A DNA stretch of 64,000 bases, taken from contig JAAHFU020000001.1 of the NCBI GenBank assembly GCA_010672825.2, forward strand, positions 682,001-746,000. Reading direction: 5' to 3'. The notes under the pieces are model-generated. The model searched no databases. It worked only from the letters and a program-made list of their open reading frames with translations, and was not told the DNA's origin. The stretch comes from Leptolyngbya sp. SIO1E4. Its GTDB lineage: Bacteria; Cyanobacteriota; Cyanobacteriia; Phormidesmidales; Phormidesmidaceae. Shown piece after piece: positions 40,348 to 58,255 of this stretch. Within the stretch, counting starts at the first letter, position 1, and the number at the start of each line of letters is the position of its first letter. Both the position numbers and the translations under genes were made by a program.

Positions 40348-41082
40348 CTAAACCGGCTTTTCAAAAAAGAACAAATGTTGTTGAGGTAAAGATTCATCCG
40401 TTTTTAGCCAAGTAAGCCCGACTGCCCGCATCTCACGTTTGATCTGAGTTTCACTCATTTTGTGCAGACGCTTAATAAGCACCAGGGGGTTTTCAGCGCG
40501 ATATTCTGCTAGAACCACCCGTCCGCCTGGTTTGAGCGCTGCTTTGAGGTGTGTCATCATCTCAAAGGGAAATTCAAATTCATGGTACGCATCCACCATC
40601 AAGGCTAAATCTACCCGCTCTGGGGGTAAGTGAGGGTCCTCGACGGAGCCGTGGATCCCTTTCACACGAGAGAGCCCCGCTTCTGCAATGCGGGCTTCCA
40701 ATAACTGCAACATCTCGGGCTGAATGTCTACTGCCAGCACTTCACCCTCAGGCACCTTTTCAGCTAACCGGCGGGTCATGTATCCTGTTCCAGCCCCAAT
40801 ATCGGCCACAACATCATCGGGCTGTAGCGCCAACAGATCCACAATGGCTTGCGGATGTTCCTGGGGTTCCCGACTGGGTCGCTCCAGCCAGTAGGCGCCT
40901 TCGTGCCCCATCACCTGAGCAATCTCACGCCCCAAATAAATTTTGCCAATGCCATCACGGCTGGGTGGTTGAAATCGGTAGACTTCGGTACTGCCATCAA
41001 TCACCCCGTCTTGGCAAGCCCACAACGTGAGACACAAGACACCGATGAACAGAAAGCGCATTCGATGCAAAACAGACATCAT
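40348..41082 (-). CDS. Predicted lipoprotein with SAM-methyltransferase domain
   Basis: A 244-residue protein with a signal peptide and lipobox LTLWAC (Cys23) ahead of a class I methyltransferase domain: VVADIGAGTGYMTRRLAEK (motif I), VLAVDIQPEML (motif II acid) and DLALMVDAYHEFEFP. Related predicted methyltransferases with signal peptides occur in several phyla. A SAM-binding enzyme outside the cytoplasm is paradoxical because SAM is not known there. Either it acts cytoplasmically on the membrane face with an uncleaved signal, or it binds another ligand. Confidence 0.85.
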   Translation of the reverse strand: MMSVLHRMRFLFIGVLCLTLWACQDGVIDGSTEVYRFQPPSRDGIGKIYLGREIAQVMGHEGAYWLERPSREPQEHPQAIVDLLALQPDDVVADIGAGTGYMTRRLAEKVPEGEVLAVDIQPEMLQLLEARIAEAGLSRVKGIHGSVEDPHLPPERVDLALMVDAYHEFEFPFEMMTHLKAALKPGGRVVLAEYRAENPLVLIKRLHKMSETQIKREMRAVGLTWLKTDESLPQQHLFFFEKPV

Positions 41083-41106: not shown

Positions 41107-42558
41107 CTACAGCTTAACGATGTCTGCTTCATCAGTCGCGAACTCTCCCTGTAGGGCAGGCTGCTCTTGATACAAGTAAGTGTGCATTTGCCCACGCCCC
41201 TTGACCTGAATATCGCCACGGTCTTCAAACATGTACTGATCTTTGAGGAGCTGATAGCTGCTTTCACTCACCTGAATACGATTTTCGATGCCATGGGACT
41301 CCATGCGACTGGCAATATTTACCGCATCTCCCCACAGGTCATAGCTAAACTTTTTGATGCCGATGACCCCAGCGACAACTGGCCCAGTGTTAATGCCAAT
41401 TCTGAGCTGAAAGGGGGTGCCGTCGCTGCGCTGAAAGGACTGAATCGTTTCCAACATTTTGACGGCCATTTTCAGAATGGCCTCGGCATGGTCTGGGCGA
41501 GGATTCGGTAACCCCCCCACCACCATGTAAGCATCGCCAATGGTTTTGATCTTTTCTAACCCCAGTTGCTCAGCGATACCATCAAAGGCTGAAAAGATGT
41601 CGTTCAACAAGCACACCAGCTCATTCGGGGGAACCTGTGCAGACAGGCCTGTAAAGTCCACAATGTCGGCAAATAGAATGGTCGCTTCTTCAAACCGAGA
41701 CGCGATCGCCCCCACTTCTAGCTTGAGCTGTTCGGCGATCGCCATCGGCAAGATATTGAGCAGCAGTTTCTCAGACTTCTCCTGTTCTGCTTTGAGGGCT
41801 GTCTCCGCTTCTTTGCGATCAGCAATTTCTTGATGCACCCGCTCAAACATGTCAGAAAATGCCATAGACACTTCACCGAGTTCATCCTGGCGATGAATAG
41901 AACGGGTTTGAAAGTCAGGCTGCTGATCTTGACTCACTGCATAACCAGCCCGACATAAATCATCCCGCAAGTGGAGAATGGGAATGATGAGGATCCGTTC
42001 TAAAACGACGATGGTTACGAGGGTGACAAAGGCCGAAATGATCAGCACGATGCCAACAATGGCCAGCACGTATGTCCGCATTTCACTCTTGACCCCAGTC
42101 GCGTCGTGGCGCACGACTAGGACGTACTGGTTGGCCAGGCGATCGCTGGGCCAAGCAACATCGTAGCTTTTCTGATCTTGACTCAGGTGTCTAACGACCT
42201 GCCCCAAGGGCACCTCCCGACAGTCAACTTCGGGCAGATCTCCAAAGGAGTCGATAATGGCGCCATCGGGCATACACAATGTTGCCCCCAGGATGACAGA
42301 ATTCGGCTTGAGATTTTGTTGAATCGTTTGCAGCAGCACTGTGCGATCTCGTCCCAACATGGCATTTGCTTTAGCCGTGAAGAGGACTTCTGAAGACAAA
42401 TCTTCTAACCCTTTCAGCTTTTCGCGGTAACGCCGGTGATAAGACGGGACGAAAATAACACCTTCAATCACAATAATGCTGAAGAAAACCCAGCTCACAA
42501 TACGGCGAGATAATCGCGATCGCAGCAGCCCCATTGACGATTGCAGAATAGTGGTCAT
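41107..42558 (-). CDS. Membrane-bound class III adenylate cyclase
   Basis: A 483-residue cyclase with an N-terminal membrane anchor, an extracytoplasmic sensor domain (~45-165), a second span (~167-190), a HAMP linker, a short coiled coil and a catalytic domain (~290-460). Catalytic residues seen: the metal Asp in LFADIVDFTG, the adenine-selecting Lys in EKIKTIGDAYM, Asp in SYDLWGDAVNIASRME and Asn/Arg of NIASRM. The Lys/Asp pair points to ATP rather than GTP. It makes cAMP in response to an outside signal. It precedes the lipoprotein methyltransferase on the same strand. Confidence 0.9.
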   Translation of the reverse strand: MTTILQSSMGLLRSRLSRRIVSWVFFSIIVIEGVIFVPSYHRRYREKLKGLEDLSSEVLFTAKANAMLGRDRTVLLQTIQQNLKPNSVILGATLCMPDGAIIDSFGDLPEVDCREVPLGQVVRHLSQDQKSYDVAWPSDRLANQYVLVVRHDATGVKSEMRTYVLAIVGIVLIISAFVTLVTIVVLERILIIPILHLRDDLCRAGYAVSQDQQPDFQTRSIHRQDELGEVSMAFSDMFERVHQEIADRKEAETALKAEQEKSEKLLLNILPMAIAEQLKLEVGAIASRFEEATILFADIVDFTGLSAQVPPNELVCLLNDIFSAFDGIAEQLGLEKIKTIGDAYMVVGGLPNPRPDHAEAILKMAVKMLETIQSFQRSDGTPFQLRIGINTGPVVAGVIGIKKFSYDLWGDAVNIASRMESHGIENRIQVSESSYQLLKDQYMFEDRGDIQVKGRGQMHTYLYQEQPALQGEFATDEADIVKL

Positions 42559-42759: not shown

Positions 42760-44244
42760 ATGACGGTCGCCCTCACCCCTGGCAAGCTACTCCGTACCCA
42801 AGAGATCCCTTCCTTGGACTTTCAATCAACCCGCGATCGCTTTGACGATTCTTGGCGGGCTCCCCTGGCGATGCTGTTAGGGCTAGGCCGGTCAGCAGGG
42901 GCCGACTTTATAGAATTCTTTCTCGAGCGCAATCAATACATCAGCTGCTTGGCAGAAGACAATGCGATTACCAGCATCTCCCCTCGCTTGGTGACGGGGG
43001 CTGGGGTACGGGTGTTCTTGGGCAATGCTGATTGTTATGTCAGCACCAACGATTTGACATTTAAGGGCCTGCGCAATGCCCTCGAAAAAGGGCTGTCTAT
43101 TATGGGGCTGCATCTGCCAGGGCCGGCGTCTTCAATTCCAGAGACAAATTTAGAGCTGTTGCGAGACTATGCCACGACGAAGGGCAAAGATGCCTGGTTA
43201 GGGGCCTGTAGCTCAATGCAGGAGATGGGTGAGGTTTTGTTGGCTGCTAATGGCGCGATCGCTCAGCATGCCACCCATGTTCAAGCTCGTCGTACGGGTT
43301 ATTTCCGTGACTGGCAAGAGGTACTGGTCGCGGCGAGTGACGGCACCTTTGCTCGCGATATTCGGTTAACGCAGTCTGTTGGCTGCAACCTTCTCTGTGC
43401 CGATGGTGAGCATCGCTCTTCCATTGGGCAGCGCTTGGGAGACACCAGCGACCCTAGTTTTCTGAGAACTTGGGATTATGGCACCACCGCACAAACGGTG
43501 GCTGACTCTGCCGGTAAGATGCTCTACGCCGACTATGTTGAATCAGGCACTTACCCAGTGGTGATGGCCAATCACTTTGGCGGCGTCATTTTCCATGAAG
43601 CCTGCGGTCACCTGCTTGAAACCACACAGATTGAACGCGGGACAACTCCGTTTATTGACAAGAAGGGTGAAAAAATCGCCCATGAAAATCTCACAGCCTG
43701 GGATGAAGGGTTATCGGACGATGCCTTCGGCACCCTCGATATGGACGATGAAGGAATGCCCACCCAGCGCACGCTGCTGATTGAAAACGGCGTTCTGAAA
43801 AATTTCTTGAGTGATCGGGCAGGCTCCATGCGTACTGGTCATCCTCGCACTGGTAGTGGACGGCGACAAAGCTATAACTTTGCCGCCGCATCCCGTATGC
43901 GCAACACTTACATTGCCAGTGGCGACTACACCACTGAGGATCTGTTTGCCTCTATCGAGAAAGGCATTTACTGCAAGAAAATGGGAGGCGGTAGTGTCGG
44001 CCCAACTGGGCAATTTAACTTTGGGGTTGATGAGGCCTATTTGATTGAAAACGGCAAGGTCACTAAACCGCTCAAAGGCGCCACGCTCATCGGTGAAGCT
44101 AAGGAGATTATGCAGCGTATTTCCATGTGCTCTAGCGACCTCAGCCTCGCTGCTGGCTTCTGTGGCTCCGTTAGCGGCAGTATTTACGTCACTGTAGGGC
44201 AACCTCACCTCAAAGTCGATGCCATTACCGTTGGTGGGCGGTAA
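42760..44244 (+). CDS. tldD: TldD-family metallopeptidase
   Basis: A 494-residue TldD protease subunit. Seen: the zinc motif HEACGH (about residues 279-284) with the following [30 protein letters not shown] and a C-terminal block ending in a glycine-rich strand. TldD usually forms a heterodimer with TldE/PmbA and trims or matures unfolded peptides. No tldE gene is next to it here; the next gene is convergent. The start at 42760 follows a GC-rich promoter region; a ribosome binding site is weak. Confidence 0.92.
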
Positions 44245-44305
44245 CCCCTTTAGGCTTTGGGGGCATATGGATAGATGGGGCTTCCATGGATGGATGGGGC
44301 TCTGC

Positions 44306-46195
44306 TTAAAAAGGTATGCGCTCAGGGCTGCGCTCTATCATCAACTCTGATACCGATCCAGATGGTAGAGGGGGTGCGATTAAATAGCCTTGACCAAGCG
44401 GACACCGCAACGCCTGGAGGTGCTGCAGTTGATGGGGTGTTTCAATCCCCTCAGCAATGCAGCTAATGCCAAGGTTGTTGGCCAATGCCATGATGGTTCT
44501 AACCATCCCTAACGACGTTTTATCCGCAGCCATACGGCTGATAAAGGCTGGGTCGATTTTGACAGCATTGATGGGCAAATCATGCAGTGCACTCAGAGAA
44601 CAATACCCCTGACCAAAATTGTCCAAATGAAATTGGATGTCAAATTGGCACAGCTTTTGCATGGCATCTTCAATACAAGCTGGGCTCGACATCAGCATGC
44701 TCTCTGTCAACTCAAATCGTAGTTGCCTGGGCTCAACCCCGGTCGTTCTGATAATTTGCATCACTTGCTCAACCACATCCCGTTGTTCAAACTGTTTGTT
44801 GGATAGGTTGATGCTCATGGTTAGCTCAGGTCGGTTAAAGTGGGTTTGCCAGGTTCGCAGCTGGTAGCAAGCTTCCTGAATCACCCACCAGCCAAGCGGA
44901 ATCATCAAACCGGTTTCTTCAGCTAAAGGAATAAACTCGGCTGGGGCAATGTTAGATTGTTGGGCCGGACACCACCAGCGCAGCAGGGCTTCAAACCCGA
45001 TGAGCGCCTGAGTCGATAGAGAGAAAATTGGCTGATAATGTAGCTGCAACTCGCCCTGGTTGATGGCATTCTGTAGCGCCGCTTCCTGATTGAGACGATA
45101 AACGGCTTGGGTATGCATTTGTTGATTAAAGACCAGATGGCCGCTGCCTTGGCGTTTGGCCTGGTACATTGCCAAATCAGCATTCCGGAGATAATCAATT
45201 GGGCGAGTCAGTGCCGGAGCACTGAAAACAATGCCAATACTGGCTGCAATATGAACATCATGATGATGAATCTTGAATGCTGCCGCGAGAACTTGTTGAA
45301 GACGCGCCACGATATCGAGTGCCTGAGCACACGAATCCGGATCTTCTAAGAGAATGGCAAATTCATCCCCACCAATTCGAGCAACCGTATCTTTGGCCCC
45401 CAGGCAGGCAGATAACCGCTTACCCACTTCAACTAAAAGTTGATCGCCAGCCGCATGCCCTAAGCTGTCGTTGATCACCTTAAACCGATCCAGATCCATA
45501 AACAGGACAACGAATGGATGCTCTGGATGGTGCTTTAAGTGTTGGCAGGCTGCGGACAAACGCTGATTGACATAGGTGCGATTCGGAAGCCTCGTTAATG
45601 GATCGTGCAAACTCTCGTAGGACAGTTTTTCCATGACGGCCTGCCGCTCGAGTTCTGCCCCTGCACGAACAGCAAAGATTTCCATAATGCATAGACCCAA
45701 GGGCTCGGGTTCTCTAGGCTGGTCATGCATAACGACCAGGTGTCCTAGCACTTCTCCAGCAGAACTGGTGATAGGAACCCCAAGATACGCCTCTGCGCTT
45801 AATCGCAACAAATCCAGATCTTGCGGGAATTTTTGCCGTATGAAGGCCGGATAGTAGCACGTTTGGCCATTCAACACCTGTTGACAAGGGGTATCAGCCG
45901 TGGTGTAGCTAAAATTCTGACCAAAGTCAGACCCTTGCCAAAAGGCCAGGGTTTGGACACGGGTTATCCCTTCGCCCTCAATGCATCGAGTAATCAAGGC
46001 GTAGCGAACCCTGAGTGCACAGGCAAGGTAGTACGCTAGAGACCGAAAAAAATGTTCACCCGTTGCCGCTGACGTCCCTTCAACGACGATTCGGAGTGCT
46101 GCTTCGATATCAAATGAAGGAGAACTGACGTCAGTCGACTCACGCAAACAAAGGGAATTGCGCTGATGGGGGATAGGATGTCCGAGGTTCATCAA
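44306..46195 (-). CDS. GAF-GGDEF-EAL cyclic di-GMP signalling protein
   Basis: A 629-residue soluble protein: N-terminal GAF-like domain (~25-175), GGDEF domain (~195-355, active-site GGDEF near 273-277 intact) and EAL domain (~370-620). The EAL signature is GFEALLRWW, followed by INLSNKQF and ELTESML; the loop normally DDFGTGYSSL reads DNFGQGYCSL, so the second metal-binding Asp is Asn. The catalytic KIDPAFI and AEGIET segments are present. It could both make and cleave c-di-GMP, but the Asn change may weaken the phosphodiesterase. Confidence 0.9.
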   Translation of the reverse strand: MMNLGHPIPHQRNSLCLRESTDVSSPSFDIEAALRIVVEGTSAATGEHFFRSLAYYLACALRVRYALITRCIEGEGITRVQTLAFWQGSDFGQNFSYTTADTPCQQVLNGQTCYYPAFIRQKFPQDLDLLRLSAEAYLGVPITSSAGEVLGHLVVMHDQPREPEPLGLCIMEIFAVRAGAELERQAVMEKLSYESLHDPLTRLPNRTYVNQRLSAACQHLKHHPEHPFVVLFMDLDRFKVINDSLGHAAGDQLLVEVGKRLSACLGAKDTVARIGGDEFAILLEDPDSCAQALDIVARLQQVLAAAFKIHHHDVHIAASIGIVFSAPALTRPIDYLRNADLAMYQAKRQGSGHLVFNQQMHTQAVYRLNQEAALQNAINQGELQLHYQPIFSLSTQALIGFEALLRWWCPAQQSNIAPAEFIPLAEETGLMIPLGWWVIQEACYQLRTWQTHFNRPELTMSINLSNKQFEQRDVVEQVMQIIRTTGVEPRQLRFELTESMLMSSPACIEDAMQKLCQFDIQFHLDNFGQGYCSLSALHDLPINAVKIDPAFISRMAADKTSLGMVRTIMALANNLGISCIAEGIETPHQLQHLQALRCPLGQGYLIAPPLPSGSVSELMIERSPERIPF

Positions 46196-46383
46196 AATAC
46201 ACCGACGGCGAACGAAATGTGCCCGGATAGAAACCGCTGAATCAAGGGCGACGAGCGGTGCTTAGTCTATGCTTGGCGTTGCAGCAATATTAGACAAGTC
46301 TCATATCTCATGTTGAGATGGGGTAACACGAAAGGGTTCCTTTTAGGTTGAAAGGAGTCATTGAACGATAAATTCCAATAATC

Positions 46384-46438
46384 TGACTCAGAAGGATATT
46401 CCTGCTTATCCGAAAACTAGGGATATCCTCCTGAGTCA
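46384..46438. repeat. Imperfect 19-bp inverted repeat after the halogenase-like gene
   Basis: TGACTCAGAAGGATATTCC (46384-46402) and GGGATATCCTCCTGAGTCA (46420-46438) are reverse complements with two mismatches, around a 17-base loop. It lies just downstream of the minus-strand halogenase-like gene (stop at 46455). No T-run follows on either strand, so it may be a processing or stability hairpin rather than a terminator, or a piece of a small mobile element. Confidence 0.55.
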
Positions 46439-46454
46439 ACTATTGCAGCAGTTG

Positions 46455-48071
46455 TTAAACCAAGGCTGCAATGCGATCGTTTTGCACTACATACGGTGTG
46501 AGTTCAACATGCTGTTCCAAATAATGATGGAGCTGCGCCTTCATTTGTCGCACCATGTCATCATATAAAGCACATCGAAGTTGAGCATCATCTGCTGCAG
46601 CAGCGTGCTGCTCAGCCTGATGCATTATCTGCCAAAGCTGTTTCTGCATAACCTGATAAGAAGGACTGAGAATACCCCAGACATTCGTATCTGCGAGTCG
46701 ATAGTCATCCATCAGATTTTGATGTTGATTAAAGTGTCGCCTCGCGTCAATTTCTTGAAAGCGCTGCACCAACTCGATCGCCTCTGGGTGATTGAAAGAC
46801 ATGTAGACTAGCTGATTATCACGCTCCAGTGCTTCATGGAGGTAATGAGCAAAGTGTTCATAGCGCCCAAAGTTGGCCCGCGTAGCTTTGTTGCCATCAA
46901 TCACCTGTAGCGATTCTTGAGCTGCAAAATAGGCTGTTGCAACCCCCCCGGTCAGACCAGGAGAAATAAGAGGATCTACAAAAAAGGCCGCATCGCCAAT
47001 AATGAGCCAGCCATCACCACTCACCTGGCGGGCGTGACTCCGCACATTGGCTCGACTCAAATAATCATGCTTCCCGTAACAATCATCCACGAGGGTTGCC
47101 CCTGCGAGCAGCTGAGCGATCGCAGGGTATTTTCGCGCATAGTGATCAAAGACCGCTTTAGGGCCTTGATTCTTGAAAACATGATCCCGATCATCCCGTA
47201 GCACCAAGCCAACACTGATCAGATCTTCAGCCTGGCAGTCAAATGCCTGCTGCAGATCATCTCGATTAGGGATTTGCCCCGTTGGCGACAGGAGTTGTTC
47301 CAGCATCGGAGCCAGCTGATCGTCAGCCACATGCTCCCAAGAAACGAGTGGAATGTACCAAAGCCAGCCTTCGTTAAAGCACAAGTGTTGGGTATATTCA
47401 TCTCGAGAAAACTGTGCCGCTGCTGGCCAAGGATCAAGACTGCCTAAGCGACGGACGTTTTTGAAATAGCCCCAAACGGCATTATTTTGAAAGAGGCTGT
47501 TTGTTTTGGTGTGTAGACCTAAATGCTTCGCCAAAACACTAGCAGGACCAGTCGCATCTACCAGCAGATTGGCCGTGATGCTGTGCTGCTGTTGCCGGGT
47601 CTGATAAATAATTTGGTTTCCAGTATGGTCTAAGGTAGAGCGCTTGATATTGACTCTGGCACCCTGCAACACTTCAACTCCAAGGCGACGAGCATTTGCG
47701 ATTAGCAGGTTCTCCAACACCCGGCGCTCAATCTGAAAAGTTTCGTCAAAGGTCTCCAAGATATATTCAGACGCGGCTCTGACATCAGCAACTGTTTCAT
47801 CGACATGAAAAAAGCCGAGCCCATTCTTTGGGAAAAACAGTCGGTCTAGGGTTTCCTGGCGAATGCCAACAGAACGTAAGGCTTTGCAAAACCCTGAAAG
47901 TGTGCTCTCACCAATCTTGTGACGCGGTGTCTCAGACCGCTCTAAGACAATAATGCGACTCTGAGGGCGCGCCAGCTTGATCCAGGAGGCATAAAGCAAG
48001 CCTATGGGGCCAGCACCGATAACTGCAATGTCGTAGCTCGTAGCCTTCGAGGTAGATGTTGTTGCAGACAT
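46455..48071 (-). CDS. Flavin-dependent halogenase-like oxidoreductase
   Basis: A 538-residue FAD enzyme of the tryptophan-halogenase-like superfamily. Seen: FAD-binding GAGPIG (19-24), IGEST (53-57), a Lys at residue 82 in FFPKNGLGF in the region of the halogenase catalytic lysine, the WxWxIP motif as WLWYIP (236-241), GD in WLIIGDAAFF (about 359-364) and the FxxPxxSxG motif as FVDPLISPG (364-372). These motifs mark flavin-dependent halogenases, which activate chloride or bromide with reduced FAD. No flavin reductase, carrier protein or biosynthetic cluster lies nearby. It could instead be a monooxygenase or reductase of the same fold; the substrate is unknown. Confidence 0.75.
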   Translation of the reverse strand: MSATTSTSKATSYDIAVIGAGPIGLLYASWIKLARPQSRIIVLERSETPRHKIGESTLSGFCKALRSVGIRQETLDRLFFPKNGLGFFHVDETVADVRAASEYILETFDETFQIERRVLENLLIANARRLGVEVLQGARVNIKRSTLDHTGNQIIYQTRQQQHSITANLLVDATGPASVLAKHLGLHTKTNSLFQNNAVWGYFKNVRRLGSLDPWPAAAQFSRDEYTQHLCFNEGWLWYIPLVSWEHVADDQLAPMLEQLLSPTGQIPNRDDLQQAFDCQAEDLISVGLVLRDDRDHVFKNQGPKAVFDHYARKYPAIAQLLAGATLVDDCYGKHDYLSRANVRSHARQVSGDGWLIIGDAAFFVDPLISPGLTGGVATAYFAAQESLQVIDGNKATRANFGRYEHFAHYLHEALERDNQLVYMSFNHPEAIELVQRFQEIDARRHFNQHQNLMDDYRLADTNVWGILSPSYQVMQKQLWQIMHQAEQHAAAADDAQLRCALYDDMVRQMKAQLHHYLEQHVELTPYVVQNDRIAALV

Positions 48072-48807
48072 ACAGATAAACCCTTAAAGAAAGTTGAAGC
48101 TTTTATAAATATTTAGTTTTTCTCCGGGAAAACAACATTGTATTTTTACATAACTGTAAAAGCAACCTGCGAAGATGTTGCGTAGGATTACGGTTGGTAG
48201 TCAAGGGGATATCTTATGTTAGCTTAGGGGACTGTTGACTTTAATTCTCATCTCGTCGGGTTTACCGATGGCAGACTATACCATAGGGTTGACTTAGCCC
48301 AGTGGCCACTCAACGGACTTCATGCCAGGGTTTACGCTGACAATATAAACGGCTACTGTCTTCTAGCAAGGCCTAGGCCGTGCCGATGGGCAGGATGAGG
48401 TCTGGTTGTTAGGCGTTGTCGTCAAGCGTCATTAGTATCTAGATAAGTTCAGGGCTAAGCAGTTCGATACGGTAGAATTTCTAGCCCTTGACATAGCAGG
48501 ATCGTTCTTCGACATTCACTGCAAAATAGAGTTTCTTACTTTCTATGGCGCTTGCAATTAAGATTGAGAGTCACCGGTCGCTAACCGTTCAGAGTTTACG
48601 TAAATTTAGCGCTTCATGACCCGACAAAACACCCATAATACGGCGATATCTCTGCAAGCTGGCCAGGTGGAAGACGATTCTTATTAGGAACAAGACTGAA
48701 TATTAAGGCTCCTCAAGAACCGTATACTCCCCCAGAATCAAAATGCTGAGCTTCCTATACTGATCACTATCTTCAGTTAATAGCTCGAATGCCAGGAGGG
48801 CAGAGCC
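48072..48807. other. 736-bp gap upstream of the halogenase-like gene
   Basis: No gene was recognised on either strand. It holds the palindrome at 48144-48161 and presumably promoters for the divergent flanking genes, with AT-rich sequence at 48100-48150. I looked for tRNA-like and tandem-repeat structure and found none. The length is large for this genome and may hide a small RNA. Confidence 0.5.
48144..48161. promoter_or_regulatory. Perfect palindrome (TTTTACA-N4-TGTAAAA), operator candidate
   Basis: The arms TTTTACA and TGTAAAA flank TAAC, about 75 bp upstream of the halogenase-like start codon. A palindrome in that position could be an operator of a dimeric repressor, or a hairpin in the leader. 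No regulator gene is adjacent. Confidence 0.4.
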
Positions 48808-49008
48808 ATGAGCCATACTTATGAGGCTTTTGTGGATATCAAAGAGTATGTAGAGGGAGGAGGCGCTCCTACACGAATCTATACAGAACGTTACGAAGTT
48901 GATGCCATATCAGTCAGGGGGGCTGATGAGGCAGCTTTATCTAAGGCAACAGGTATCCACCCGAAAGCAGCAGAACTTGACGTCAGGATTACTCGTCTAC
49001 TGAAATAA
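48808..49008 (+). CDS. Small hypothetical protein (66 residues)
   Basis: An open frame with a strong ribosome binding site AGGAGGG (48794-48800) and an ATG at 48808. The protein is mixed charge (YEAFVDIKEYVEGGGAPTR..., then YEVDAISVRGADEAALSKATG), with a strand-rich first half and no membrane segment. I do not recognise a family. The ribosome binding site and codon use support a real gene. Confidence 0.6.
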   Translation: MSHTYEAFVDIKEYVEGGGAPTRIYTERYEVDAISVRGADEAALSKATGIHPKAAELDVRITRLLK

Positions 49009-49113
49009 TTTTCGACTTTCTAGCATTTCTTTCCAAGCAAGTTAAAGCATTATTTTTAATGGGGCAATTGATATTGCCCCATTTGTTTTTGATGTATGAA
49101 TACCCTCCTTTCT

Positions 49114-49503
49114 TCATGTAACGGAGCCATTGGCGATCGCAACTGCATAAGACTTTGTCTGAGAAGCCTTCCAGAGTTTAAAGAGACGTTGCTCAAGACG
49201 GGGATTCAGCTCTGTGACAAAGACGCCTTCCTCCTGATCAGGGTCTTCTGTAATCCACAAACCTCGCAGCGTAATTTCTAACCAATCAAGATCGCACAGA
49301 GACAGTTCCAATTCTTGGAACTGCTTGAGTCCTTGAATCCCAGCCAAAGTTGTAGGCAGGGGAATGCTGGCTTGCATGGGTTGTACGGTAATCGGGCGCT
49401 GAGCATGGACATATAGGCACACGCGATCGCTCAGCAAGAGATCTAAAGGTTTAGGGCAGTACTCTAAACAGAGTCCCGTCTCGGTATAAGTAACTTTCAG
49501 CAT
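49114..49503 (-). CDS. Conserved cyanobacterial hypothetical protein
   Basis: A 129-residue protein from the ATG at 49503 (MLKVTYTETGLCLEYC). The sequence with LLLSDRVCLYVHAQRPITVQP and ASIPLP, then LELSLCDLDWLEITLRGLW, resembles a cyanobacterial conserved family of unknown function. The frame runs to 49545 but the first 14 residues look unlike the family. No membrane or signal features. Soluble, function unknown. Confidence 0.7.
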   Translation of the reverse strand: MLKVTYTETGLCLEYCPKPLDLLLSDRVCLYVHAQRPITVQPMQASIPLPTTLAGIQGLKQFQELELSLCDLDWLEITLRGLWITEDPDQEEGVFVTELNPRLEQRLFKLWKASQTKSYAVAIANGSVT

Positions 49504-50200
49504 GGAGACACCTGAAGCTGGAAGGGAAAAAAGAAGCCTATTCAAGCACGATGCAAAGGGTGTAAACGCTTGGTGGCAAAGGGCCTATATCCAAAGAAAA
49601 CCATCTACGATGGTAGACCTCTTCAGATGACGAAACGTCTATGGTGGCGATCGCCCTCAGTGTTGCCTAGCAAGACACAGTAGAACGGTGGGGATCGCCC
49701 TGGGTGGTATTGGCTGCGGCTTGCTAAGTTACGCGCTTGCCAAAAAGCTATAAACGCTGCAAACCGCCTCTGTGAAAATTCCGGTTAATGCTGCTGCAGC
49801 TGCACGCAGTTGAGCAGTGAGTGCCAATGCCATTGTCGATGCGGGCGTTTCGTCAGGCCGGTTGCAGCCTTCATAGCCGTTGGGATAAGAGCGCTAGCGC
49901 TCATCCAGGGAAACGGATCGTTGCCATCAAACGTCCCAAGATGTCGAAAGGGGGATACATCAGGCGTGCTTGCTGCCAACCCATCGATCTGACATCCACG
50001 AGCAATCGGGCTAATGTAGCGGGTTTGGATGCGGATGAATTGGTTCGGCATTTGCATCAGTCTCCGTATCAGGCACTCTTTCATGAATGCCAAGGCACTG
50101 TTACTTTCTTCTGTTAATACTACACTCGTATTACAAAAGTGTCTAGACTATGGGGTAGTTTAAGAACGAACACAAACAATCTCAGGAGGTGCCCCCATCC
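49504..50200. other. Gene-poor stretch upstream of the RHH-like gene
   Basis: Nearly 700 bp without a convincing gene. Overlapping open frames on both strands at 49785-50117 have no recognisable domain and conflict with each other. A perfect 14-bp palindrome GAGCGCTAGCGCTC lies at 49889-49902. It may be the site of a decayed gene or a mobile-element remnant, which I could not identify. Confidence 0.4.
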
Positions 50201-50542
50201 ATGCCCACACTTTCCCGCACATCCACCACTGATATGGAAGTTACTAGTATCCGCCTAGAGAAGGCGTTGAAGGAGAGTTTGAAAGCCATTGCCGGCAATC
50301 GGGGCTATCAGGCACTCATCCGGGAAATTTTGTGGGCTTACGTGGAGCAGCAATCGGGCACCGTTAGCAATACTATTGATTGTTCGGAGATTCGGGCAAC
50401 GATTCAGGCCACAGCTGAGCGCGCAGAGCGCTGTGCCATTACTGGCCAGGCGATCGCGCCTGGAGAGTCGATGCTGTTAGGGTTGACCTCCCAAGGGGCT
50501 TTAGTTCCCCTGTGTCAGGACGTGACGGTAACAGTGCCTTAG
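50201..50542 (+). CDS. Small protein with ribbon-helix-helix-like N-terminus
   Basis: A 113-residue protein. AGGAGGT at 50184-50190 fits the ATG at 50201 (MPTLSRTS) better than the GTG at 50189. The segment MEVTSIRLEKALKESLKAIA, followed by GYQALIREILWAYVEQ, looks like a strand-helix-helix ribbon-helix-helix fold used by small repressors and antitoxins. The C-terminal half contains CAITGQAIAPGESMLLGL, with paired cysteines that might bind a metal (Cys at 'RCAI' and 'PLC'). Its role is unknown; it may be a DNA-binding regulator for neighbouring genes. Confidence 0.65.
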   Translation: MPTLSRTSTTDMEVTSIRLEKALKESLKAIAGNRGYQALIREILWAYVEQQSGTVSNTIDCSEIRATIQATAERAERCAITGQAIAPGESMLLGLTSQGALVPLCQDVTVTVP

Positions 50543-50608
50543 CGCTTATCCGCCAGGCACGCTCTTAGCCAGCACAGAGCCTTGGCTCTGCCCGTACGGC
50601 ATGAATTG

Positions 50609-51982
50609 TTATGATTGCCTTTCTCGATGGCAAAAGCGATGATCTAGGCGGGCATTTTCAGGGATTTGCTTGTTTTCGCGCCAATAGTTAGGAATGTGAG
50701 CAATCACGGCATCATCAACATGCTCAATAGGTTTCCAACAGACATGGCAGGTTGGATGTTTTTCTAACAAAGACTGCTTAAATGCCAGAGAAAATGTGCG
50801 AGGTTCGTCTGCGTTTCTCCCCTTTAAAGACGCTATCAATGTTTGTAAGCGATCCCGCCAGGCTTCTGCACGATACTGAATGCGCTCAACTTTATCCGTG
50901 CTGGTGCTAATGTAATCTGAAAACTTTTTGTCATCCGTGATCATCGCCAGGAATTCTTCTCGGATGTGGTCTTTGATGGGTAGAATCTCATCAAGCTGGT
51001 AATAGCTAAAGGTATACAAAATAGTATCCCAGAGGGCGACATTAAGCCGTGATTTTTCCCAGGTACCGTTGGGATTGTAAGTATTGCCAGAATAATAGCG
51101 CCGAAAAGCCTTTTCTTGGAACACGGAATAGGCCATCTCGATGGACTTTTCAAACGTCTCGCGCATTTCTATAATGGCTGTCTCACTTAAATTACGGTGC
51201 AGCTCCATTTCGGTATTGAGAAATCGCTTTGTCGGACCTTTATAGTTGTGGTGGGTGTTGCGCCACATGGCAAAGAAACGCAGGATTAATTGGCGATCGG
51301 CCATGCGGGAATGGGGTTCTTCCGATTGCAAAACCTTTAGCATGTAAGGAGTCTGAGAGAGCGATCGCAGCAGTTCGTTATAGTTGCCGCGATACACACA
51401 GTTCCGAACTTCTTGGTCATTCAGCTTTTCGGCCCCTAGATTCAGTCGCTCAAAAACCTCAAATTTAACGTCTGGATCAGAGTCCTTTTCGATAATGATC
51501 AGCCTTAGCGTAAAGTTGAGAATTTCTTCTTGTAATTCAATCGATAAATCCCCAAACGCCTTTCGATTTAGATCGGTTAAGACCTGTAATCCAGAAAGCT
51601 TAAACTTTTGCCCATTGGGAAATTGACCATTCACAAAAGAGCAAATGCTTGTTAGACGCTGCTGACCATCCACCACGGAATAAGTACGATTGGGCTCTTC
51701 AGCCACATAAATCACTGGAATTGGAATTGCCAGCAATAAAGACTCAATTAAACGGCTAGCTTTGCCACTATTCCAGACAAAATTACGTTGAAAATCTGGT
51801 TGTAAATTGAGTTTGCTTCGGTTAACCCAACTCACAAGCGTTTCTACCGGAACATCTTGCTTTTCAGTTCTCACACACCGCTTTTCAGGTGCAATTTCCA
51901 GCGGGCTATTATCTTCGCTTTCTTCAATAATTAGGTTCGATTGTGAGGGGGCCTGTTCGGAAAGGGATTTGGAATCAACCAT
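50609..51982 (-). CDS. DUF262 (GmrS-like) protein with C-terminal HNH-type motif
   Basis: A 457-residue protein from the ATG at 51982. The DUF262 domain (~45-300) begins WVNRSKLNLQPDFQRNFVW, and the hallmark DGQQRLTS is present, as in ParB/Srx-fold NTP-binding domains of GmrSD-type modification-dependent restriction. The C-terminus has CHVCWKP, AHIPN and then NARLDHRFCHRE, an altered HNH zinc-ribbon pattern. DUF262-HNH proteins occur in phage-defence neighbourhoods; in GmrSD the two domains act together to cut glucosylated DNA. Here the protein stands alone with an RHH-like gene divergent to it. Whether it cuts DNA is unknown. Confidence 0.85.
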   Translation of the reverse strand: MVDSKSLSEQAPSQSNLIIEESEDNSPLEIAPEKRCVRTEKQDVPVETLVSWVNRSKLNLQPDFQRNFVWNSGKASRLIESLLLAIPIPVIYVAEEPNRTYSVVDGQQRLTSICSFVNGQFPNGQKFKLSGLQVLTDLNRKAFGDLSIELQEEILNFTLRLIIIEKDSDPDVKFEVFERLNLGAEKLNDQEVRNCVYRGNYNELLRSLSQTPYMLKVLQSEEPHSRMADRQLILRFFAMWRNTHHNYKGPTKRFLNTEMELHRNLSETAIIEMRETFEKSIEMAYSVFQEKAFRRYYSGNTYNPNGTWEKSRLNVALWDTILYTFSYYQLDEILPIKDHIREEFLAMITDDKKFSDYISTSTDKVERIQYRAEAWRDRLQTLIASLKGRNADEPRTFSLAFKQSLLEKHPTCHVCWKPIEHVDDAVIAHIPNYWRENKQIPENARLDHRFCHRERQS

Positions 51983-52264
51983 GGCGATGGTGAGACACAC
52001 TAAGTTGCCAAGTTATAAGAATACGTCAAAGCAAGTCGGATATCTTTCAGGGCTTCCTGAATACTTGCCTAGCTAGATTTTCCTAGTTTAGATGGACATC
52101 CTTGCTCAGTTAGACACTCTACCCTGGTTCAGGTGCAGCACTTGTCTATAGAGAACTATAAAGGGTGAATCTAGAGTAATTGAAAGGATTTCCTTTAGCT
52201 GCAGCGTGGAGACTCCACTTAACCGGGCATTCTGAATCTAAAGTGTGCTTTAGAGCCTTGCCCA

Positions 52265-55693: not shown

Positions 55694-58255
55694 ATGAAAA
55701 GGATTTGGCGGTGGATTAAGCGCACTGACACGCTACAACACCCACTTGATTGTCAGGAAAATCGCTTCAAAACTGACGATCAGCTGGGTGTTCGTCAGCT
55801 CAAACAAGGGTTGAACATGGGTGAGCGATCTAGTTGGGTTTTCAACTGGTTGCGGCCTCCATTTCAATTTCAATCTCAAATTCCGCTCCCTCCAATTTCA
55901 AAACGTTGCCGTCCAGAAAAAGGGGAGCGAGGGCGGATAAAACCGGCGATCGCCCTCACGCTATCGATTGTGACCCTGACTGCGGCGATGGGGCAACGCT
56001 TTTACCGGCAGCCGGAATTACAGGTTGGAACTTTTGCGCCTAAAACCGTTTTTGCCCCAGAAAGTGCGTCGGTTATTGATGCAGAAACGACCGAGGCCAA
56101 GCGGACAGCCGCCCGCAATGGGGCTGTCCCGGTGTTGGTTCCCAATGAAGAAAAAGACAGACAAATTCAAAATTCCCTAAATAGCGTATTCAAGCAAGTT
56201 GACATTGTCCGGAAGGAAGCGGGTGATTTTCCGTTTTTCGCCGTCAATCGGCTGACAACGGCAACCCAGCAGTATATTCAAGAAACCCCATCCTCAGAGT
56301 GGGATGCTGTTTGGGCAGTGGTGGAGGATGTTGTCACAAAGGCCCAAGCAGACAACGCCACGTCAACGGATCTCGAGTCTCGGCTGACAGATCATTCAAA
56401 CTTTTGGGCGTTAAGCACTCAACAACAATGGATTGTTCGCGACTTGATGCGCTATCAGCAACAGCGATCGCTAGCCGCTCTTCAATCGCTCAAAGGCCAG
56501 ATTGACAACACCCGCGCGAATTATCAAGCAGCCATCTTAAGGCTACAAAACCTGGCTGCAGCAGAACGGGGACTTCCTAACGACGCCGAATTGCTTCGGC
56601 TTTCGGATGCTGAGTGGGCCAAAATCCAGAAGAACCTGCACCGCGCTTTAAACAATATGCTGCTTCAAGGGATTGCCGAGGGCGTGCCCCGTGAGCAACT
56701 ACGGGTTGCGGGTAGGGCTCAATTAGATGGGGTTGTGCCGGAAGGGACAGAAGCCTTGGCCAACGCGCTCTTGATGGTGGTGTTGGAACCCAATTTAGAG
56801 AAAGACCTGGAAAAAACCCGAGCGAAGGCAGAGGCGGCTGCCGAGCAGGTAAATGAGGTGCTTGTCACCGTGGAAGATGGGGAAGTCATCATCTATCAAG
56901 GGGAAATTATTGGGCAATCGGACTTCGTCTTGTTAGACCATTTTGAGCTCAGCCAGCGGCGTCTCAATATCTGGGGGCTGATGGGATTCGGAGTCCTAGT
57001 CGCGGGTGTTACCGGCCTTTTCCTCCTCGCTGAACGAACTGTCAGGCCCGCCTTGCGTAAGCAAGATCACGGCTTAATCATTTTTATGCTCCTGGGCGTT
57101 TCGGGGCTCAGCGTTGTGGGGTTAGCCGTTTATAGTTTGCCTGCGGTGGGGTTACTGATCAGCAGCTTTTACGGAGCCACCCTCGGCTCAACGCTGATCG
57201 GGGCGCTGGCGATTCTGCTCCCCATTGGCACTCAAGTCAGCGAGATTTCTCTGTTGGCCAGTGCCGCAGGCGCTTTAGTCTGTAGCCTGATCGCACCACG
57301 CTTGCGTTCACGAGAAGAAATCGCTCTGCTGGGTGGTATCGTGGGGCTCATTCAAGGCACTGTTTATTTGGCGTTAACCTGGGTGATGAGCCCAGTATCT
57401 GTTACTACCTGGCTACCGTTAACTGGAGCCATTCTGCAGGGGGTTTATGGCATTGTCTCTAGCGTCATTGCCTTGGGGCTCAGCCCCTACCTAGAACATC
57501 TCTTTGATTTGGTCACGCCTATTCGCCTAGCGGAGTTGTCTAGCCCCAATCGACCGACCTTAAAGCGATTGGCATCTGAGGCCCCAGGGACATTTCAACA
57601 CACATTATTTGTGGCCTCATTGGCAGAAGCCGCCGCCAGGGCATTAAGCTGTAATGTCGAGCTGGTCAGAGCTGGGACGCTGTATCACGATATTGGCAAA
57701 ATGCACGATCCGCTAGGCTTCATTGAAAACCAGATGGGCGGCCCCAACAAACACGACGAGATTGCGGATCCCTGGGTGAGTGCAGACATTATCAAAAAGC
57801 ATGTCAGCGAAGGCTTAGTTATGGCTCGCCGCTGTCGTTTGCCAAAGGCCGTCAGGGCGTTTATCCCTGAACATCAGGGCAACATGCTGATCAGCTATTT
57901 CTATCATCAGGCTAAGGAACGGGCTAAGGTCGACACCCACCTCGTCGTTAACGAGAAAGACTTCCGTTATGACGGCCCGATTCCACAATCGCCAGAAACG
58001 GGCATCGTCATGTTGGCCGACTCCTGTGAGGCGGCGTTGCGATCGCTCAAAGATGCTTCTACCGAGGAAGCCCTGGCCATGGTAAATCGCATTTTGAAGG
58101 CTCGCTGGCGGGATCAGCAACTGGTCGATTCGGGGCTAACTCGAGAACACATGGGCATGATTGCTCAAGTCTTTGTCCAGGTTTGGCAACAATACAACCA
58201 CAAGCGCATTGCTTATCCTAAAAACAGCTTGAGCCCTATCATCAATCGCTCATGA
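55694..58255 (+). CDS. 7TM-HD family phosphohydrolase (PgpH-like)
   Basis: An 853-residue membrane protein. After a basic N-terminus and one membrane segment there is a large extracytoplasmic domain (~115-420), then a block of seven or so membrane spans (~426-600) and a C-terminal HD domain with HDIGKMHDP (~666-674), EHQGN and DSCEAALRSLKD. This is the 7TMR-HDED / PgpH architecture, whose known members hydrolyse cyclic di-AMP. It should control c-di-AMP in response to a signal in the periplasm. The ATG at 55694 gives about 100 residues before the first membrane segment, longer than usual; a start at 55817 (MGERSS) is an alternative. Confidence 0.9.
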   Translation: MKRIWRWIKRTDTLQHPLDCQENRFKTDDQLGVRQLKQGLNMGERSSWVFNWLRPPFQFQSQIPLPPISKRCRPEKGERGRIKPAIALTLSIVTLTAAMGQRFYRQPELQVGTFAPKTVFAPESASVIDAETTEAKRTAARNGAVPVLVPNEEKDRQIQNSLNSVFKQVDIVRKEAGDFPFFAVNRLTTATQQYIQETPSSEWDAVWAVVEDVVTKAQADNATSTDLESRLTDHSNFWALSTQQQWIVRDLMRYQQQRSLAALQSLKGQIDNTRANYQAAILRLQNLAAAERGLPNDAELLRLSDAEWAKIQKNLHRALNNMLLQGIAEGVPREQLRVAGRAQLDGVVPEGTEALANALLMVVLEPNLEKDLEKTRAKAEAAAEQVNEVLVTVEDGEVIIYQGEIIGQSDFVLLDHFELSQRRLNIWGLMGFGVLVAGVTGLFLLAERTVRPALRKQDHGLIIFMLLGVSGLSVVGLAVYSLPAVGLLISSFYGATLGSTLIGALAILLPIGTQVSEISLLASAAGALVCSLIAPRLRSREEIALLGGIVGLIQGTVYLALTWVMSPVSVTTWLPLTGAILQGVYGIVSSVIALGLSPYLEHLFDLVTPIRLAELSSPNRPTLKRLASEAPGTFQHTLFVASLAEAAARALSCNVELVRAGTLYHDIGKMHDPLGFIENQMGGPNKHDEIADPWVSADIIKKHVSEGLVMARRCRLPKAVRAFIPEHQGNMLISYFYHQAKERAKVDTHLVVNEKDFRYDGPIPQSPETGIVMLADSCEAALRSLKDASTEEALAMVNRILKARWRDQQLVDSGLTREHMGMIAQVFVQVWQQYNHKRIAYPKNSLSPIINRS

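Follow-up and report, generated by a model that had tools for sequence, protein, structure and literature searches.

A predicted flavin-dependent halogenase with a conserved GAF-GGDEF-EAL neighbour in Leptolyngbya sp. SIO1E4

The stretch of DNA analysed here (the window) comprises 64,000 nucleotides of contig JAAHFU020000001.1 from the cyanobacterium Leptolyngbya sp. SIO1E4. The gene at positions 46455-48071 of its minus strand very probably encodes a flavin-dependent halogenase, a prediction of activity that draws on sequence motifs, a candidate catalytic lysine, Pfam profiles, phylogeny and the modelled fold, and that upholds the halogenase-like enzyme proposed in a first-pass annotation of the window. 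Flavin-dependent halogenases are familiar chiefly as tailoring enzymes encoded in biosynthetic clusters. The enzyme described here belongs to a rare, apparently uncharacterised subfamily; in one of its clades the halogenase gene adjoins the gene of a GAF-GGDEF-EAL protein, a predicted enzyme of cyclic di-GMP (c-di-GMP) metabolism. On balance, we favour the interpretation that the halogenase serves a free small metabolite and forms, with the GAF-GGDEF-EAL protein, a functional module tied to c-di-GMP. The components of this interpretation differ in strength: halogenation by the window enzyme is likely from its sequence, action on a free metabolite is plausible, and the conservation of the gene pair hints at a coupling to c-di-GMP.

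The halogenase and its nearest relatives

The reading frame is intact, starts with ATG and encodes 538 amino acids. The elements noticed in the first-pass annotation were located in it, all on the minus strand: WLWYIP at residues 236-241 (47349-47366), FVDPLISPG at residues 364-372 (46956-46982) and the candidate catalytic lysine, Lys82 (codon 47826-47828). WxWxIP and FxxPxxSxG are motifs typical of flavin-dependent halogenases. In an alignment of the window protein with 16 relatives that are 48-74% identical to it, Lys82, W-x-W-Y-I-P, the F, P, S and G of FxxPxxSxG, and Glu440 are conserved together in 17/17 rows. The GxGxxG site for flavin adenine dinucleotide (FAD) reads GAGPIG in the window protein; 16 of the 17 rows fit the pattern and the remaining one has GGGPLA.

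Pfam identified the protein as PF04820 (Trp_halogenase, 67.2 bits against a cut-off of 21), and PF01494 (FAD_binding_3) matched as well. Among the NCBIfam models the CmlS halogenase came first (117.6 bits, cut-off 900), followed by the geranylgeranyl reductase family (73.4 bits, cut-off 158.8); the enzyme is related to both models and a member of neither. The nearest solved relative, by sequence as well as by structure search, is MalA' of Malbranchea aurantiaca (PDB 5wgr), a late-stage indole-alkaloid halogenase. Variants of MalA' matched residues 11-478 (best E 1.9e-45, chain 5wgv), with 144 of 448 aligned residues identical in the 5wgu fragment and 25-27% identity by structure alignment, whereas for most other solved halogenases the best local stretch stops near residue 243. 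MalA' differs from the window enzyme in that it is fungal, has 667 residues with a longer C-terminus, carries WVWVIRL where the window subfamily has WxWYIP, and is encoded within a biosynthetic cluster. PltM, CtcP, PltA, CmlS, CndH, RadH, FasV and Bmp2 have the fold in common with the window enzyme at 18-25% identity.

Lys82 aligns with Lys108 of MalA', a conserved residue that, according to a passage of a review, fixes hypochlorous acid (PMC9144378). The same column holds lysine in all six known halogenases added to the alignment, among them CndH, CmlS, RadH, PltA and FasV (the five of the above that were aligned), and also in 11 of a further 12 cyanobacterial rows to which the alignment assigns no function, so that the lysine alone is not decisive. 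Position 494 of MalA', which holds a Glu that binds the substrate and is an Asp in the E494D variant used, aligns with Asp442, two residues from the invariant Glu440.

An AlphaFold model built from the 17-row alignment had a mean predicted local distance difference test (pLDDT) score of 78.3 and a predicted template modelling (pTM) score of 0.85. Its weak loops are residues 89-107, 214-227 and 364-369, the last falling within the FxxPxxSxG motif with a pLDDT below 50. In a Foldseek search the top match was MalA' (E 5.4e-31, TM 0.81 over the query), and ranks 1-36 were halogenases only. VIA gave a Z of 30.4 over 506 residues for MalA' and a level score for Bmp2 (30.7 over 382), followed by the hydroxylases PqsL, PnpA and KMO at Z 24-26. 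Since the halogenase CmlS, at 24.5, scores among these hydroxylases, the fold alone cannot decide the chemistry, and a shared fold in a model does not show function. Placement with geranylgeranyl reductases, which the first-pass annotation had named as grounds for rejecting a halogenase, was looked for and not seen: no such enzyme appeared in the first 50 Foldseek rows, and CmlS precedes the reductase family in NCBIfam. The fold ranking, the motifs and the NCBIfam scores together disfavour a geranylgeranyl reductase or another oxidoreductase.

Distribution and phylogeny of the subfamily

The 8.2-Mb genome of Leptolyngbya sp. SIO1E4 holds a single copy of the halogenase. (Loci and genomes are cited below by our working labels, L and G.) Among 386 cyanobacterial genomes, 58 had some match at E 0.001 and full-length matches were confined to the window genome and G070. 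A set of 59 relatives contained full-length matches in six, the window genome included, and a partial one in another, and three of 120 genomes from the order of G070 bore the halogenase at E 1e-60. When 84,980 species were scanned with two short peptide patterns, 60 stretches matched, 16 of which encode relatives; such a scan may overlook members, and the genome searches alone contributed G438 and G477. The subfamily is thus rare. Named strains that hold it are Oscillatoria sp. CS-180, Pleurocapsa sp. CCALA 161 and Hyella patelloides LEGE 07179.

In the tree, rooted at the midpoint for drawing and containing no identified geranylgeranyl reductase, the subfamily falls into three clades. Clade A comprises the window, Oscillatoria sp. 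CS-180 and six Pleurocapsales (support 82/72), clade B six cyanobacterial loci (100/100) and clade C three loci from metagenome-assembled genomes (MAGs; 94/93). L073 and L074 were assigned to clade A by their identity to L048 (95% and 72%). MalA' joins the whole subfamily at 99/98, as a long branch on which the program issued a warning. Pleurocapsa sp. MO_192.B19 possesses both a clade A (L044) and a clade B (L056) halogenase.

The conserved GAF-GGDEF-EAL neighbour

The next gene downstream of the halogenase, at 44306-46195 on the minus strand, encodes a GAF-GGDEF-EAL protein of at most 629 residues; TTG is the listed start at 46195, followed by an ATG at 46192. The full protein matches PF00990 (157 bits) and PF00563 (227 bits), with no GAF match at E 0.01. 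Scanned alone, the GAF domain (45596-46117, minus strand), which served as specificity probe, matched PF01590 with 26.6 bits against a cut-off of 22.4; with an E-value threshold of 10, PF01590 was found in four of the seven GAF rows aligned, and the GAF profile had no match at E 0.1 among PDB sequences.

A gene of this kind adjoins the halogenase in all nine clade A loci with a visible flank: the window, L043 (seen as L039), L044, L045, L047 (seen as L038), L048, L057, L073, where the pairing was read from ORF (open reading frame) positions and search hits, and L074. The tenth locus, L046, cannot be judged because its contig ends 482 bases upstream. Two gene orders occur, both with the partners on the same strand. 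In the window and in Oscillatoria sp. CS-180 the GAF-GGDEF-EAL gene lies downstream of the halogenase; in L044, L045, L047, L048, L057, L073 and L074 it lies directly upstream and encodes a longer N-terminus.

The GAF domains of the paired proteins stand apart from their homologues. Outside the window genome, the best match to the GAF probe in the 386 genomes was the halogenase-adjacent gene of G070, at 205 bits, and the next reached 159. In the order of G070 (120 genomes) the three highest matches (332, 295 and 245 bits; next 195) came from exactly the three halogenase-bearing genomes, and each adjoins the halogenase. The 195-bit match belongs to G442, and the 8.2 kb inspected there contain no halogenase. 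No weight is given to the correlation between halogenase and GGDEF-EAL distances (r 0.99, seven loci), because shared strain descent would give the same.

The first-pass annotation had termed the halogenase an orphan without adjacent biosynthetic genes. The second half of this description is borne out: among ten ORFs of the 37-58 kb region scanned with Pfam, none has a nonribosomal peptide synthetase, polyketide synthase or carrier-protein domain. The word orphan is nonetheless misleading, because the c-di-GMP neighbour is conserved.

A 111-residue protein that co-occurs with clade A halogenases

In eight of the ten clade A loci a gene for a 111-residue protein lies 3' of the halogenase. The L048 copy matched no Pfam or NCBIfam model, and a profile of six rows found no PDB sequence at E 1. 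With thresholds of E 1e-5, and 1e-15 for the set of 120, the profile detected the protein in one of the 386 genomes (G070), in one of the 59 (G405) and in three of the 120, the same three that bear the halogenase. The three sets together hold 500 different genomes, all of which were also searched for the halogenase: five have a clade A halogenase, four of these five have the 111-residue protein, and it was found in no other genome. In G405 (Oscillatoria sp. CS-180) its gene is on a different contig, tens of kilobases or more away from the halogenase, so that close linkage does not explain the co-occurrence in this genome. The number of independent co-occurrence events is small, since three of the four genomes belong to one family.

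The model of the protein is an eight-stranded barrel (pLDDT 80, pTM 0.67). Its best VIA match is the cyclic-dinucleotide receptor Cap15 (7n35; Z 10.4 over 92 residues, 2.4 Å), followed by GID4 (9.3) and avidins (about 7-9). Foldseek returned nothing significant, the best match (E 0.18) being a protein other than Cap15. The modelled likeness to Cap15 is a lead, not an assignment.

Sister clades B and C

The halogenases of clades B and C have other associations. In all six clade B loci (L052-L056 and L058) a gene for a SnoaL-like protein of 120 residues lies directly downstream of the halogenase gene (the L054 copy scores 72.4 bits with SnoaL_2). Each of the three clade C loci encodes a fusion, a TetR-type N-terminus followed by the halogenase, in an ORF of 756-773 residues (L049:7350-9620, L050:2486-4765 and L051:7260-9581). 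The TetR_N match of the L051 fusion is 51 bits; compared with the N-terminal part of L049, that of L050 shows 43% identity and that of L051 55%. Among regulator models, ScbR fits the TetR part of L051 best, at 39.3 bits against a cut-off of 150. A GNAT-like gene, identified by Pfam in its L051 copy, follows the fusion in 3/3 loci, and a fatty-acid-desaturase-like gene precedes it in two (L049:5543-7357 and L051:5549-7297); the latter type was recognised by Pfam from the L051 N-terminus, and its long C-terminal part looks ferritin-like by eye.

The clade C assemblies are labelled Obscuribacterales, Rubripirellula and Actinobacteria; two are titled as MAGs and the third is metagenome-derived by its title. 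Because the halogenase of L051, labelled Actinobacteria, groups as sister with that of the Obscuribacterales assembly (100/99) and the gene order is the same, the L051 contig may be misbinned.

Intergenic sequences and other genes of the window

The first-pass annotation had described the halogenase gene as bracketed by inverted repeats. The repeat after the gene is real. At 46376-46445 (minus strand), between the halogenase and the GGDEF-EAL gene, a terminator- or attenuator-like stem-loop without a T-run folds to -36 kcal/mol (z -7.7; none of 200 shuffles as good). It is single-copy, with two other matches in the genome of 18-21 nt (E 0.5 and 0.9), and is for this reason a hairpin between two genes and not one of a bracketing or mobile pair of repeats. 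It was not among the predicted terminator-like sites, which, like the promoter-like sites, hardly exceed expectation (four against 3.6, and five against 4.3). In Oscillatoria (L043) a hairpin of different sequence (z -4.9) lies between the same genes. The supposed palindrome upstream of the halogenase did not hold up: the imperfect repeat at 48099-48163 (arms of 17 nt, 76%) is at chance level, and folding of 48072-48170 does not surpass that of shuffled sequences (on the minus strand z is +0.75, with 157 of 200 shuffles equally stable or more so; on the plus strand it is -1.43, with 19 of 200). A promoter palindrome was dropped as a candidate on account of this chance-level fold. The roughly 1 kb upstream of the halogenase (48072-49113) contains no ORF of at least 80 residues and no Rfam match, and Rfam had no match at E 0.1 anywhere in 44000-50700.

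A mobile element bracketed by repeats was likewise rejected, the hairpin being single-copy and no phage record matching. Plasmid matches (63 records) were all below 60% identity, one of them reaching 80% cover or more, at 25% identity, and viral contigs gave one match, a 37% fragment of 79 residues.

One of the ten scanned ORFs encodes a generic methyltransferase (40351-41082). Less than 10 kb from the halogenase are two further second-messenger genes, which encode a class III nucleotide cyclase (41107-42558) and a seven-transmembrane HD (7TM-HD) protein (55694-58255) that we take to be PgpH-like. A stand-alone GmrSD_N protein (50609-52000, 99 bits) is possibly a defence gene.

Interpretation and rival explanations

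Action on a free metabolite is plausible because the scanned ORFs contain no carrier-protein gene and the nearest solved relative uses a free alkaloid. In the mechanism we propose, the enzyme would be a two-component flavin-dependent halogenase supplied with reduced FAD by an unlinked flavin reductase, for which no search was made. Reduced FAD would react with O2 and chloride or bromide to form hypohalous acid, which would pass to Lys82 and halogenate a free, small, electron-rich metabolite, probably phenolic or indolic. Together with the GAF-GGDEF-EAL protein the halogenase would form a small functional module in which c-di-GMP is connected with the synthesis or the perception of the halogenated compound: the GAF domain may read the compound or its precursor, or the c-di-GMP status may time its production. 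Chlorohyellazole and similar carbazoles of Hyella were weighed as products and no evidence for them was found.

Several observations weigh against this interpretation. The halogenase and its partner are about 260 nt apart in the window with a strong hairpin between them, which makes their co-transcription doubtful, and the window genome lacks the 111-residue protein (no match at E 1). GGDEF-EAL proteins with such GAF domains are common in cyanobacteria, GAF matches at 1e-20 occurring in 80 of the 120 genomes, and the nine pairings in nine loci are a raw count rather than one weighed against chance. The support of clade A is modest, and no GGDEF-EAL neighbour was seen in the stretches viewed for clades B and C, the shortest of which spans 3.3 kb. 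Among the literature matches listed, some of them excerpts, no assay of any subfamily enzyme was found. In a tree of 21 GAF domains the paired ones do not form one clade, those of the window and Oscillatoria standing apart from the Pleurocapsales type (two changes); they do so in 8% of the bootstrap trees, and a single clade is not rejected (p-AU 0.317). The sequences are consistent with a pairing that arose once, followed by rearrangement, or twice, a single origin being neither shown nor rejected; two origins would be the stronger argument for function.

The catalytic motifs of the partner also vary. The GGDEF motif reads RIGGDEF in the window copy and is kept in six of seven aligned copies, the Oscillatoria copy (L039) having SGDEF. 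The window copy possesses EAL but has DNFG for the DDFG of the other six: Asn526, counted from TTG (44618-44620, minus strand), replaces the second Asp, leaving the pair of aspartates incomplete, and a Gly replaces the I-site Arg. The Oscillatoria partner combines SGDEF with DDFG and the five aligned copies of Pleurocapsales type combine GGDEF with DDFG. If these residues have their usual roles here, the net c-di-GMP output probably differs between strains, and the window protein would be expected to have an active cyclase and, owing to the Asn in DDFG, a weak phosphodiesterase.

An ordinary tailoring halogenase of a natural product whose pathway is otherwise encoded at another place in the 8.2-Mb genome, with the GGDEF-EAL gene an incidental neighbour, is unlikely in our view, though it is the most probable of the rivals. 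The abundance of related GAF domains in cyanobacteria, a GAF tree that does not show a single origin of the pairing, and the different neighbours in clades B and C would all agree with it. It does not readily account for a partner of the same kind in every visible clade A locus and in both gene orders, for the clear gap between the GAF scores of paired and unpaired homologues, or for a third gene that co-occurs in G405 without close linkage. A non-halogenating flavin monooxygenase, that is a hydroxylase of the same fold, is improbable. PqsL, PnpA and KMO share the fold at Z values that do not separate them from CmlS, PF01494 matches as well, and the lysine by itself does not discriminate; set against this are Lys82, WxWxIP and FxxPxxSxG occurring together in all 17 aligned rows, the unbroken series of halogenases at the head of the Foldseek ranking, and the grouping with MalA', subject to its long-branch warning.

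Two further explanations are special cases of, or build on, the coupled halogenase. The enzyme might modify or quench, inactivating incoming signals or toxic phenols by halogenation, with the GAF or TetR domains sensing the unmodified compound. The lack of biosynthetic genes among the scanned ORFs, the association or fusion with sensory or regulatory proteins in two clades and the preference of the L051 TetR part for ScbR, far below the cut-off, fit such a role; it would require a substrate from other organisms, and we rate it lowest of all. Rather unlikely, if less so than either quenching or hydroxylation, is a module that converts halogenation into a signal, in which a small halogenated effector would be read inside the cell by the partner GAF domain or, in the sister lineages, by the fused TetR-type domain. 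The 111-residue barrel might then carry the ligand or messenger, in line with its best VIA match to a cyclic-dinucleotide receptor, Foldseek being not significant. These explanations overlap, so that their likelihoods need not add up to certainty.

Comparison with known systems

AetF is cyanobacterial in origin. The authors of a 2021 paper, as excerpted, stated that to their knowledge no cyanobacterial flavin-dependent halogenase had been characterised in vitro (PMC8406957); the structure of AetF has since appeared, according to an excerpt of PMC10306068. For a halogenase tied to c-di-GMP, the nearest precedents among the literature matches listed come from Synechocystis and Dictyostelium. Excerpts of the 2021 paper describe some gene clusters of CylC-type dimetal halogenases in Synechocystis that contain PriA and a diguanylate cyclase/phosphodiesterase (PMC8406957). 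They resemble the clade A loci in having a halogenase-type gene with a c-di-GMP enzyme nearby and no carrier proteins in the vicinity, and differ in that the halogenase class is unrelated and the excerpts mention the c-di-GMP enzyme merely as cluster content. In Dictyostelium, stalk-cell differentiation and cell death involve both c-di-GMP and chlorinated DIF-1, made by the chlorinase ChlA; synergy between them has been suggested, and deletion of chlA does not prevent stalk differentiation (excerpts of PMC4686194). This system is eukaryotic, and the excerpts do not mention gene linkage. In a mainly non-subscription literature, partly represented by excerpts, the matches listed included no report of the subfamily, of its pairing with GGDEF-EAL genes or of TetR-halogenase fusions.

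The halogenation-to-signal module, if real, would be a bacterial parallel to signalling by chlorinated DIF-1 and c-di-GMP in Dictyostelium. A product could be sought in the strains Oscillatoria sp. CS-180, Pleurocapsa sp. CCALA 161 and Hyella patelloides LEGE 07179. A halogenase subfamily with second-messenger or transcription-factor partners would suggest that halogenated compounds serve bacteria as internal or population signals.

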